DNA of 33,942 nt from Nitrosomonas sp. Its GTDB lineage: Bacteria > Pseudomonadota > Gammaproteobacteria > Burkholderiales > Nitrosomonadaceae. The first letter of the stretch is position 1. Each line of letters begins with the position of its first letter. Positions 1 through 33,942 of the stretch are shown here, one piece after another. The stretch lies in assembly GCA_030682075.1 (NCBI GenBank), contig JAUXRH010000142.1, forward strand, positions 1 to 33,942, given 5' to 3'. A model generated the notes under the pieces. That model was not told the DNA's origin. It saw only the letters and a list, made by a program, of their open reading frames with translations, and ran no database searches. A program made the position numbers and the translations under genes.

Positions 1-142
1 ATCGTAGCGAGCAAAGTGGGAAAGCGAGGACAGATTGGCCGGATTTTGAGGCGCATAGTCATTCTATGCAACGAAAAATCAGGGTAATATGAACCGCTTG
101 TCCCATTTGTGCAGTAGATCAACCTTAAGTCCGACAGACTCC
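1..142. mobile_element. Family A MITE-like element, left part cut by window edge
   Basis: This is the inner part and right terminal repeat of a small element whose complete copy lies at 30849-31011. The right inverted repeat, cttaagtccgacagactcc, is at 124-142. An internal hairpin (gcatag/ctatgc) is at 53-69. No reading frame of useful length is present, so it is non-autonomous. It directly abuts a family B remnant at 143, which suggests insertion into that element. Confidence 0.75.
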
Positions 143-180
143 TGGTCTTGTTTAGAACGCTGAATTTTTAGAGGTGCCCT
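143..180. mobile_element. Family B MITE-like element, right-end remnant
   Basis: About 30 bases here (141-171) are identical to 13435-13465 in the longer family B copy. The stretch ends with the terminal repeat ttttagaggtgccct. The rest of this copy was displaced by the family A element to its left. Its outer edge touches the stop codon of the ycgR-type gene (181-183) with no spacer. Confidence 0.7.
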
Positions 181-5786: not shown

Positions 5787-7247
5787 TTAACGTAACAGTG
5801 AAAGCACATTATTGGGCAGTGAATTAGCTTGCGCCAAAATTGCCACGCCTGCCTGCTGTAGAATCTGGCCACGGGTCATGTTGGCAGTTTCAGCAGCAAA
5901 GTCAGCATCTTGAATCCGACTACGTGAGGCGGTCAGATTCTCTGAAGTCCTTTGTAGATTTGCGATGGTTGAGGTGAAACGGTTCTGAATCGCGCCCAGA
6001 TCGCCACGCGAACTATTGATGGCGTTTAAAGCCGCATCCAGTGTCGCAATGGCTGTCTGCGCGTTAGCAGCAGACGAAATATCCATCGTTGCAACAGAAT
6101 TAAAGGCACTGGCTGTGGCAGTAAACACATCCGCATTTGAATTCCCGGCAACCACCCGGCCTTGGGTACTGGCTATTTCGACCGTGCCGGTTAGCGTAGT
6201 TGAATCTGATGCTGTACCACCTGTTAGAGTTCTTGTGGTTACTCCAGCAACGATATCGGCTGTTTTGGTTGTGCCTGAATTGTTGAAATCCACCACCGTG
6301 ATATCTCTGCCATCTGTGGTGCTCAGGGTAATGACTGATTTATCACTGGTTGATGCAAAGGAAGCGGTGACCCCGGTCAGTGATTGGGCGCCATTAATGG
6401 CCGCAGCCAGGCTGCTTAAATCAGCGTTGTCAGCCACGACCGCAGAGACTGAATTGCCATTTAACGTCATGGAAATAGTACCGGCACTCGCCACGTTGCC
6501 CAGGGTGGCGCTATTCGAGGCGGTTGCAGCGATGCCAATGCTGGAACCGGCCGTGTTAATGGCGGCTGCGATCGTTTTTGCATCAGCACCTGCCGCATAA
6601 GCAATGTTACCCGTTGCTCCTTTATTATTGGTGAGTACCAAATCAGTCTCACTAGCCACGCCGTTAGCTGCCACAGCAGCAGCTACTGCTGTGGCAGTCC
6701 CCATAGCAGTTCCACCAGTGCTCAATAGATTGCTGCCCAGTGCAGTGGCACGCGCATCGGCAATGGAGGTAATATCAATGGTCTGGTTGGCATTGGCGCC
6801 AACCTGGAAACTCTGGTTAAGGAATGAGCCATCCAGTAAGTTTAAGCCGTTAAACTGAGTCTGGCCGGCAACCCGGGTAATCTCTGCGGTTAATTGCGCC
6901 GCTTCCGCTTGTAGTGAAGCACGATCACTGGCACTGTTGGATGCATTGGATGACTGTACCGCCAGCTCACGTATGCGCTGCAAGTTGTTGCCAATCTCGC
7001 CCAGCGCGCCTTCAGCGGTTTGCGCCAGCGAGATACCGTCGTTGGCGTTACGTGCCGCCTGATTTAATCCGCGGATTTGTGAGGTCATTCTTTCAGAAAT
7101 GGCCAAACCCGCCGCATCATCCTTGGCACTGTTGATTCTCATACCCGAGGATAAACGCTCCAATGAGGTATTCAGTGATGATTGAGACATATTGAGGTTA
7201 CGTTGTGCAGTCAATGATGCAACATTGGAATTTATAATTTGTGGCAT
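5787..7247 (-). CDS. fliC: Flagellin FliC
   Basis: The 486-residue protein has both conserved flagellin ends. The N-terminal D0/D1 is INSNVASLTAQRNL and LSSGMRINSAKDDAAGLAI. The C-terminal D1/D0 includes NRFTSTIANLQ and SRIQDADFAAETANM, ending NNVLSLLR. The middle (about 175-385) is Ala/Ser/Thr/Val-rich and variable, forming the exposed filament surface. The product is exported by the flagellar type III system and polymerises into the filament. It has a strong ribosome-binding site (AAGGAG, 7253-7258) and a sigma-28 promoter about 100 bases upstream. It is the first gene of the block. Confidence 0.97.
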   Translation of the reverse strand: MPQIINSNVASLTAQRNLNMSQSSLNTSLERLSSGMRINSAKDDAAGLAISERMTSQIRGLNQAARNANDGISLAQTAEGALGEIGNNLQRIRELAVQSSNASNSASDRASLQAEAAQLTAEITRVAGQTQFNGLNLLDGSFLNQSFQVGANANQTIDITSIADARATALGSNLLSTGGTAMGTATAVAAAVAANGVASETDLVLTNNKGATGNIAYAAGADAKTIAAAINTAGSSIGIAATASNSATLGNVASAGTISMTLNGNSVSAVVADNADLSSLAAAINGAQSLTGVTASFASTSDKSVITLSTTDGRDITVVDFNNSGTTKTADIVAGVTTRTLTGGTASDSTTLTGTVEIASTQGRVVAGNSNADVFTATASAFNSVATMDISSAANAQTAIATLDAALNAINSSRGDLGAIQNRFTSTIANLQRTSENLTASRSRIQDADFAAETANMTRGQILQQAGVAILAQANSLPNNVLSLLR

Positions 7248-7348: not shown

Positions 7349-7375
7349 TTATCGGACTATATTTTAGAAAGTTTA
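7349..7375 (-). promoter_or_regulatory. Sigma-28 (FliA) promoter of fliC
   Basis: Read on the minus strand, TAAACTTT-N11-TCCGATAA matches the sigma-28 consensus TAAAGTTT-N11-GCCGATAA at 14 of 16 positions with exact spacing. Transcription would start near 7341, giving a leader of about 95 bases to the fliC start at 7247. Confidence 0.88.
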
Positions 7376-7450
7376 GCCGTTATGATTCATCCGGGTACCT
7401 CACTTATTCTATCTTCAGGTGAATAAGCGTTACATGGGTAAGCTAACTAA

Positions 7451-7621
7451 CCCGGATATTGCATGAGGGCACCATGAATTGCACGCGCCCTCACTGGTCT
7501 CTTGATTCCACAAGGAATTTGTCTCAGTCAGGTGTATGAATAACTACACCGTTTCTTCGAAAAATCCCTTGTGAAACCAATATCATGCGTGATCATCGTG
7601 CGAATTCATGCAATATCCGGG
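7451..7621. repeat. 171-bp imperfect palindrome (foldback element) in the fliC/kinase gap
   Basis: The ends are a perfect 16-bp inverted repeat, cccggatattgcatga/tcatgcaatatccggg. Further matching pairs lie inside: 7474-7485 with 7597-7609, 7506-7520 with 7561-7575, and a central hairpin ggtgta/tacacc (7531-7536 with 7545-7550). The left arm carries an extra 11-base piece that creates its own small hairpin (gagggc 7465-7470/gccctc 7487-7492). The structure is non-coding. It lies upstream of both the fliC promoter and the divergent kinase gene. The rest of the 600-base gap has a minor hairpin (cttattc/gaataag, 7403-7427) and nothing else I recognise. Confidence 0.65.
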
Positions 7622-7848
7622 CTAAGAAAGAGAGCTTTTCATTTCCGCGCGGAGGTACCTTATCGCAAGCTATTTTTCTGCGCACTAAGCTGAAGAAATT
7701 TCGCCTGGTTTAGTCGTTGATTGGTTAATGGGTTAATTCACTGGATGAACTCGCGCTAGAAAGTGCTTCTTTCCATTGAAAATATCTTGTAAAATGAGAC
7801 GCTTATTCGGGAAATAAACCTCGTGCAAATGTTGAAGGGCTGAAGAAA

Positions 7849-9414
7849 GTGGGAATAAAAAGGTTGAACATACTGATGGTTGAGGGCTATGCTGAAGATG
7901 CGGCGCAGGTTCAGCATGTTCTCCAGGAAGGGGGGCTGCACTTTGATTGTCTGCGTGTCGCGACGATTAATGCACTGCATAAGGCGCTGGAAGACAGTGA
8001 CTGGGATGTCGTTTTGTCGGATTATAATTTACCGGATTCCGATGCGAAGGAAGTGTTGTCAGTGCTGGCAAGATATGGCCTGAATGTTCCGTTTATTGTT
8101 TTGTCCCGTCATGTCGGTGAAGAGGCTGCGGGCGCCTTGATGGAAATGGGGGCGCATGATTATGTGATGAAGACTAACATGGCCAGATTAGTTCCAGCGA
8201 TTCGGCGTAGTCTGAGAGAAGTTAAAAATTCCCAACGATTTAACCAGACACAATCCGCATTACAAAAAAGTGAAGCCCGTTTCCGGGCGCTTACCGCTAA
8301 TCTGCCCAGCGTCGTCTTTCAGTTGTTATTAGTAGAGAATAGCGAAATCAGCTTTCCTTATGTGAGTGATAGCTCTGTTACTTTACTGGGCTTGACACCC
8401 TCGATACTAATGAATAACCCAACGCTTTTTCCTGAATTAATTTTGCCTGAAGATAAAAAGATTTTTGATCGATTAATGGCGGCATCTGTTAAATACCTTA
8501 CGACCTGGAATTGGGAGGGTCGTATACAGGTTAAAGGTGATGTCGACACAAAGTGGATCAGTTTGCGTGCAACCCCGCGACGAACAGCGCGTGGCGCGAC
8601 ACTGTGGGATGGTATTATGATCAATATCACCCGAAATAAGTTGGCTGAGAGTGAAATCACACGTTCTCGAGAACAACTGGCCGAGCTTTCATCCTATCTG
8701 CAGAAAGTCAAGGAACATGAACGTGCCTATATTGCGCGTGAAATTCATGATGATATTGGCGGCACATTAACCGCCATCAAATGTGAATTACTGCCTTGTA
8801 TGGATGATAAAACGAGACTCCCTGGTTTTTATCAAAAAAAGGCAAAATCGATCGAAGGTTTAGTGGATCGGGTGATTGATAGTACACGTAGAATTTCATT
8901 GGATTTGCGACCAGGAATACTGGACTTTGGCATCGTTGCCGCTATCCGCTGGCAAGCGCAGGAATTCTCAGGTCGAACGGGCATTTCTTGTTTGGTTTCC
9001 TGTGCTGGCGAAGATATATTGCTGGATTCGGATTTGTCAGTCGCGATTTTTCGGATTTTCCAGGAAACATTGACTAATATTTCGAAACATGCGAATGCTT
9101 CACGTATTCAAGTTAAACTGGATGAAATGGATGGACTCATGTTTCTGGAAGTTGTTGATAATGGTCGTGGCATCAAGGATTCAGATATAAAGAAACAAGA
9201 TTCATTTGGTATCAGAGGAATGAGTGAACGTTGTCAGCAATTGAAAGGGAACTTTAATATTTCCGGGCTGCCTGGTAAAGGAACAAAAGTGACGCTTTGT
9301 ATCCCGGTCAGTGATATAAAGAGCTATGCTGCTCAAATGGTTGGCTCGGGAGACTTATTAAAAGACTTGCCAGCGTCGACAGAAAAACTTGGTTTGAAAA
9401 CAAAAGTTTCATAG
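7849..9414 (+). CDS. Hybrid sensor: receiver-PAS-HisKA_3 histidine kinase
   Basis: The 521-residue cytoplasmic protein has an N-terminal receiver (about 6-125), a PAS domain (about 143-265) and a NarL-type kinase core. The kinase H-box is REIHDDIGGTLTAI with H300, followed by an ATP-binding domain with ISKHANASR, DNGRG and FGIRGMSER. The receiver keeps the acceptor Asp (D58, LSDYNLPD) and Lys (K108). However, one of the usual paired N-terminal acids is glycine (VEGYAED: E12, G13). No membrane segment is visible, so the signal is probably internal or another phosphorelay protein. The start is GTG at 7849, chosen because it opens the receiver's first strand correctly; ATG at 7876 would cut that strand. 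The partner regulator follows within 25 bases. Confidence 0.85.
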   Translation: MGIKRLNILMVEGYAEDAAQVQHVLQEGGLHFDCLRVATINALHKALEDSDWDVVLSDYNLPDSDAKEVLSVLARYGLNVPFIVLSRHVGEEAAGALMEMGAHDYVMKTNMARLVPAIRRSLREVKNSQRFNQTQSALQKSEARFRALTANLPSVVFQLLLVENSEISFPYVSDSSVTLLGLTPSILMNNPTLFPELILPEDKKIFDRLMAASVKYLTTWNWEGRIQVKGDVDTKWISLRATPRRTARGATLWDGIMINITRNKLAESEITRSREQLAELSSYLQKVKEHERAYIAREIHDDIGGTLTAIKCELLPCMDDKTRLPGFYQKKAKSIEGLVDRVIDSTRRISLDLRPGILDFGIVAAIRWQAQEFSGRTGISCLVSCAGEDILLDSDLSVAIFRIFQETLTNISKHANASRIQVKLDEMDGLMFLEVVDNGRGIKDSDIKKQDSFGIRGMSERCQQLKGNFNISGLPGKGTKVTLCIPVSDIKSYAAQMVGSGDLLKDLPASTEKLGLKTKVS

Positions 9415-13289: not shown

Positions 13290-13472
13290 AAGGGCATCTC
13301 TAAAAATCCAATTTTGCGAGCAGCCGCTTTGCGGCTTGCCTGCTTGCCCCGTTTCGTCGCAATACGGCGTTGCTCACAAAAAATGCTTCCTTACCTATCC
13401 ATCATACGCTGCGTCAATATTTTTTATTCGCGCCTGGTCTTGTTTAGAACGCTGAATTTTTAGCGGTGACCT
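13290..13472. mobile_element. Family B MITE-like element, longest copy
   Basis: The left end reads agggcatctctaaaaa (13291-13306) and the right end is its degenerate inverse, tttttagcggtgacct (13457-13472). An inner palindromic stretch, agccgctttgcggct, lies near the left end. Residual sequence is shared with the copies at 143 and 24841. No transposase frame exists. It fills most of the 330-base gap between the short cyclase and the EAL-like/HDOD gene; nothing else is visible there apart from the start signals of the next gene. Confidence 0.7.
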
Positions 13473-24841: not shown

Positions 24842-24958
24842 AGGGCACCTCTAAAATGTAGTGATTATTTCAGGATAAACGCCGTATTGCGACGAAACGG
24901 GGTAAGCAGGCAAACCGCAAAGCGGCTGCTCGCAAAATTGTATTTCTGGCGGCGCTCT
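24842..24958. mobile_element. Family B MITE-like element, short inverted copy
   Basis: The left end is agggcacctctaaaa; the right end is degenerate (ggcggcgctct). Bases from about 24880 to 24941 are the reverse complement of the left half of the copy at 13290, so this copy is inverted and lacks the other half. A TA dinucleotide flanks both ends, compatible with a TA target duplication. The other bases of the 24784-25080 gap show nothing else. Confidence 0.65.
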
Positions 24959-25080
24959 TAAATGGAAATTTATCATCACCAATAGTGGAACCAGTTGAAA
25001 AGATCAGAAGGTGAATATAGAAGTAATTTATCTGGTAAAGTAGTCTAGGTATGAATGTCCGGTGAATTGGATACTGCAAT

Positions 25081-30848: not shown

Positions 30849-31011
30849 GGAGTCTGTCGGACTTAAGGTTGATCTACTGCGCAAATGGGACAAGCGGTTC
30901 ATATTACCCTGATTTTTCGTTGCATAGAATGACTATGCGCCTCAAAATCCGGCCAATCTGTCCTCGCTTTCCCACTTTGCTCGCTACGAGCACTTAAGTC
31001 CGACAGACTCC
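30849..31011. mobile_element. Family A MITE-like element, complete copy (163 bp)
   Basis: Perfect 19-bp terminal inverted repeats, ggagtctgtcggacttaag (30849-30867) and its inverse (30993-31011), bound a 125-bp core. The core is almost identical, in reverse orientation, to 1-123 and 33826-33942. It holds a hairpin but no transposase. The copy lies between the convergent ends of mnmH and rimO, 24 bases from the rimO stop, where its folded ends could also stop transcription. Confidence 0.85.
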
Positions 31012-31035
31012 TGGATGGTTAAATAAATTCTGCCG

Positions 31036-33693: not shown

Positions 33694-33806
33694 AGGAATT
33701 CTCCAGATTAAGTAATATTATTTTTTATCAATACGTTAGATTTTAACATTCAGTGCCGATTTAATACGATGTGATTAAAACAAGTGATTACACGACTAAA
33801 ACGCCA

Positions 33807-33942
33807 GGAGTCTGTCGGACTTAAGTGATCGTAGCGAGCAAAGTGGGAAAGCGAGGACAGATTGGCCGGATTTTGAGGCGCATAGTCATTCTATGCAACG
33901 AAAAATCAGGGTAATATGAACCGCTTGTCCCATTTGCGCAGT
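33807..33942. mobile_element. Family A MITE-like element, right copy cut by window end
   Basis: The left inverted repeat ggagtctgtcggacttaag (33807-33825) is followed by core sequence. Bases 33828-33942 match window bases 1-115 with one difference. The orientation is opposite to the copy at 30849. The window ends before its right repeat. Confidence 0.75.

Follow-up and report, generated by a model that had tools for sequence, protein, structure and literature searches.

Bacterial MITEs, such as Correia elements and TIMEs, are small, multicopy and gene-free elements whose terminal inverted repeats (TIRs) resemble those of an intact element, TIMEs being usually present as single copies (PMC4133298). 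The MITE-like repeats of Thiohalocapsa PB-PSB1 form stem-loops, and their ends are matched by those of IS elements at other places in the same genome (PMC10907252). In the eukaryotic piggyBac superfamily, to which IS1380 has served as an outgroup, the target duplication is 4 bp long and is mostly TTAA with a few cases of CTAA or TTAG, and the TIRs often start with CCC (PMC10813416).

The window, that is, the whole stretch of 33,942 nucleotides from Nitrosomonas sp. that was analysed, contains a palindrome of 171 bases between a flagellin gene and a sensor kinase gene. We identify this palindrome with high confidence as a non-autonomous MITE of IS1380 type, about 160 bp long in its standard form and presumably mobilized in trans, since the same TIR and the same YTAR repeats bound complete IS1380-family IS elements. 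The element is similar to the Correia/TIME-type MITEs (PMC4133298) in that it is small, multicopy and gene-free, has a stable predicted fold, and carries TIRs like those of an intact element. Unlike them, its TIRs are those of IS1380 and not of Tn3 or others, its target duplication is a 4-bp YTAR instead of the usual TA, and its internal hairpin displays compensatory changes across genera. The TIR CCCGGATATTGCAYGA and the 4-bp YTAR duplications are shared with IS1380-family ISs (NF033539/PF13701; L198, L315, L318 and others), whereas the window element is only 171 bp long, has no transposase, and is unrelated in its interior to the ISs compared. The likeness to piggyBac, seen here in a bacterial and gene-free element, lies in the TTAA-like 4-bp target preference and the start of the TIR. 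The likeness to the PB-PSB1 repeats, a stem-loop with IS-matching ends, is one of description. In the open-access literature, neither the TIR sequence nor IS1380 MITEs led to a description of the element. The features of the locus are as follows.

5787 to 7247, minus strand: neighbouring flagellin gene (PF00669, 155 bits; PF00700, 95 bits).
7349 to 7375, minus strand: sigma-28-like flagellin promoter TAAACTTT-N11-TCCGATAA, read by eye from the sequence.
7447 to 7450, no strand: left target-site duplication CTAA, the same on both sides.
7451 to 7621, plus strand: MITE copy of 171 bp, with dispersed copies (covariance-model match over 7451 to 7621, 160.9 bits).
7451 to 7466, plus strand: left TIR CCCGGATATTGCATGA, the same TIR as on the IS1380-family elements L198, L315 and L318.
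7466 to 7476, plus strand: 11-bp insertion peculiar to the window copy, from the alignment of the genome copies (its precise placement can shift by a few bases).
7504 to 7516 (approximate), plus strand: left arm of a covarying, sequence-variable inner stem (helix 4).
7531 to 7550, plus strand: central hairpin GGTGTA-TGAATAAC-TACACC (helix 6).
7569 to 7580 (approximate), plus strand: right arm of the covarying inner stem, from the fold and covariation.
7606 to 7621, minus strand: right TIR, the reverse complement of the left TIR.
7622 to 7625, no strand: right target-site duplication CTAA, from the flanking 4-mers of the copies.
7849 to 9414, plus strand: neighbouring receiver-PAS-histidine kinase gene (PF00072, PF08447, PF07730, PF02518).

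The structure described in the original prediction is borne out by the sequence. The segment 7451–7466 is the exact reverse complement of 7606–7621, giving perfect 16-bp inverted ends, and the inner stems and the central hairpin are present. The predicted RNA fold of 7441–7631 has an energy of −67 kcal/mol compared with −42.3 ± 4.4 kcal/mol for dinucleotide shuffles (z = −5.6), none of 200 shuffles being as stable. The 11-base insertion in the left arm, also part of that prediction, was confirmed by comparison with the remaining 10 full-length genome copies, which are 159–160 bp long and lack it. The insertion generates a new inverted pair (TGAGGGC/GCCCTCA) in the window copy, and a foldback template switch could be its source. 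No open reading frame of 80 amino acids or more is found inside 7451–7621, and no transposase is encoded within the 171 bp.

The palindrome was said to be unrelated to families A and B. A search for direct or inverted repeats revealed nothing that connects it with the other dispersed repeats of the window (1–180, 13290–13472, 24878–24959, 30849–31014, and 33804–33942). A second MITE-like unit with the ends GGGCACCTCTAAAAAT is among these repeats, and on other contigs (L007 and L008) copies of this unit lie directly next to copies of the palindrome. The window starts and ends in one of the dispersed repeats, where the assembly probably broke.

In the host draft genome (340 contigs, 2.73 Mb), there are 11 full-length and at least four truncated copies, about fifteen in all, which are dispersed and mostly intergenic. 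The full-length copies are 94–99% identical to each other. Copies are also found in four further species of the genus and in one other genus among 60 relatives. Among 150 genomes of the order, 10 had a match to the covariance model of the element; they belong to eight of 91 genera, that of the host included, and relatives of the element occur in other families of the order and in other proteobacterial groups as well. When public genomes were scanned for YTAR followed by CCCGGATATTKCATGAA, at least 115 stretches were obtained; among the matches listed, the assemblies are mainly of Proteobacteria and Desulfobacterota, and most of the paired TIR ends enclose 51–250 bp. No match was obtained in the plasmid collection or by distant BLAST searches for the element, and the solitary TIRs (C15, C77 and others in the host genome) that were checked as possible IS ends have no paired TIR nearby. 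The original prediction held that a single copy at the same place in all relatives would argue against mobility; the many copies in different places favour mobility.

Some further arrangements of the TIRs should be noted. Elements of 178–250 bp in Deltaproteobacteria-type assemblies (L172, L182, L208, L167 and others) are longer than the window copy and carry the same TIRs, and their interior differs while the architecture is similar, the covariance model matching them weakly. A genome of the same order (G239) has 49 TIR matches, many of them at contig ends, so heavily has the TIR family expanded there. In the host, two abutting TIRs (CCCGGATATTTCATGAAATATCCGGG) at about 1490–1523 of L025 (G000:C211:22444–22480) form a minimal perfect palindrome with no interior, flanked by TTAG and CTAA.

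The junctions of the window copy read CTAA/CCCGG...CCGGG/CTAA. Identical 4-bp YTAR flanks are found in 10 of the 11 full-length genome copies, CTAA at the window and TTAA or TTAG elsewhere. Over all sources, 49 of 92 elements have the same 4-mer on both sides, compared with 19.1 by shuffling, and none of 10,000 shuffles reached this number. Positions −5 and +5 of the copies are not conserved, which sets the length of the duplication at 4 bp. A copy in L011 (1505–1663; G000:C211) interrupts the reading frame of a KefB-like antiporter, and when the copy and one TTAA are taken out, the frame is continuous across the junction. In G010 and G011, two species of the genus, the homologous gene has no such break, its reading frame being open over 571 and 557 amino acids, respectively. 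The split gene in the host and its uninterrupted counterparts in the two relatives thus indicate that the element inserts. The host KefB-like gene has a further frame change downstream of the copy, and is therefore probably a pseudogene. No orthologous empty site for the window locus was found in the relatives, because their intergenic DNA has diverged.

Complete, transposase-encoding IS1380-family ISs of 1.56–1.64 kb are bounded by the same TIR CCCGGATATTGCAYGA and 4-bp YTAR repeats as the MITE. In L198, the TIRs enclose 1631 bp with CTAA repeats and a 448-amino-acid IS1380 transposase, which scores 417 bits against NF033539 (IS1380; cut-off, 180) and 548 bits against PF13701. The L198 protein was used as a query to collect more relatives, whose flanks were then examined for inverted ends bordered on both sides by the same 4 bp. 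The inverted ends are CCCGGATATTGCACGA in L315 and CCCGGATATTGCACCG in L318, and similar ones are found on L316, L320, and L321. The flanks are CTAA in L198 and L321, CTAG in L316, L318, and L320, and CTAT in L315. IS1380 elements of the same genus have the ends CCCGAATATTGCACGA. In the host itself, an IS1380 element (L118) occurs in decayed form and in pieces, with similar ends (CCTGAACATTGCATAAA) and a CTAA duplication. It is the sole candidate partner in the 340-contig host draft, where no intact IS1380 element with the exact MITE ends was found; an intact partner could have been lost or could have disappeared by repeat collapse in the assembly.

A deletion derivative of an IS1380 element was considered as the origin of the palindrome and rejected, because the BLAST similarity to the nine ISs compared (E < 0.1) is limited to the terminal 13–19 bases. 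The interior is thus not visibly an IS remnant.

Taken as a MITE, the element has a length of 159–171 bp without coding capacity, against a usual range of about 30–300 bp, and perfect 16-bp TIRs in the window copy. It is multicopy and dispersed, with flanking target-site duplications, and its TIRs match those of autonomous elements (L198, L315, and L318), none being intact in the host draft. Its target preference, a 4-bp YTAR duplication in common with complete ISs, is that of IS1380-type elements. Having no transposase, it does not belong to the autonomous members of the family; it is tied to the IS1380 family by its ends and is not itself an IS. An IS1380-family (DDE) transposase would recognize the terminal repeats of 16–17 bp and, when supplied in trans, would cut the element out. 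Insertion at a YTAR target (TTAA, CTAA, TTAG, or CTAG) would then duplicate those 4 bp. Judging from the sequences, IS1380-family enzymes are most likely to move the MITE, and we infer both cut-and-paste mobilization in trans and its recency.

Three guesses had been offered for the palindrome in the original prediction, of which a foldback mobile element was the right one, more precisely an IS1380-type MITE. Another was a cruciform insulating two divergent units. A regulatory cruciform or insulator confined to the region between flagellin and kinase would suit the position between divergent genes and the long foldback that is possible there, but the same element lies at ten or more unrelated loci, once inside a coding sequence, and nothing specific speaks for this role. 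The flagellin matches in the relatives have no adjoining copy, including those in the MITE-bearing G016, G020, and G022, and the sigma-28-like flagellin promoter lies 76 bp away from the element and is intact. We therefore regard such a local function as very improbable, and the window copy is probably a neutral passenger insertion upstream of the intact flagellin promoter. Still less credible is a REP/BIME-type palindrome that depends on a Y1 (RAYT/IS200-IS605) transposase for its movement. The element is dispersed, mostly intergenic and strongly palindromic as such a repeat would be, but 4-bp target duplications are not expected from IS200/IS605-type transposition, and those found in the element already largely refute this origin. 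The identity of the TIRs to those of DDE IS1380 elements also stands against it.

The remaining guess, a regulatory RNA, was not supported as such: a scan of the window against Rfam gave no match above the gathering score, and no promoter- or terminator-like match in the region rises above near-chance level. The compensatory changes leave room for a function of the folded form. Of the 46 consensus pairs in an alignment of 22 sequences, which come from several genera, 21 display compensatory change, including seven of the 10 pairs in helix 4. Cells changed on both sides number 109, compared with 34.6 in shuffles (none of 500 as high) and 10–14 with the partner slid, though the consensus structure was derived from the same alignment and is favoured to some degree over the slid versions. 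The shuffles leave relatedness in, and the slid controls keep it too, yet fall far short. In a comparison of G-U with A-C cells, aimed at selection on one strand as RNA, the numbers are 13 and 47 in A1, and 13 and 24 once clustered. Between the stems, motifs such as GCCCTCRCT, CTCAGTCG, CGCTCCTTC, and GATCATC are largely conserved over several genera. The compensatory change suggests a constraint on the hairpin. Since the stems covary around conserved unpaired motifs, the interior hairpin appears to have been kept, either by selection or by foldback-templated correction matching the arms; the conserved unpaired motifs favour some selection.

These observations raise the possibility that the IS1380-type ends carry a structured element with a function of its own, as RNA or as single-stranded DNA/cruciform, which is selected through transcript processing, termination, or protein binding, for example. 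Such a function would add to the MITE reading rather than exclude it. The 21 compensated pairs, the excess of doubly changed cells, and the conserved motifs all speak for it, but the hairpin has no Rfam family, the promoters and terminators are near chance level, and foldback template switching could also yield matched changes, so that we hold this function to be possible but doubtful. We advance in the same tentative way the idea that the hairpin of about 160 nucleotides is a genus-crossing, structure-constrained module, its fold selected as RNA or as extruded or single-stranded DNA, which spreads in proteobacteria by means of IS1380 ends.

With the element identified as an IS1380-type MITE, a striking palindrome is accounted for by a mobile repeat, and a widespread, apparently undescribed group of proteobacterial MITEs is linked to IS1380 transposases by its ends and its target duplications. 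Because the stems have evolved by compensatory change, it can be tested whether the hairpins of bacterial MITEs are functional or are by-products of inverted ends. If the structure-constrained module is real, the element would be a mobile functional hairpin and not a passive deletion derivative.
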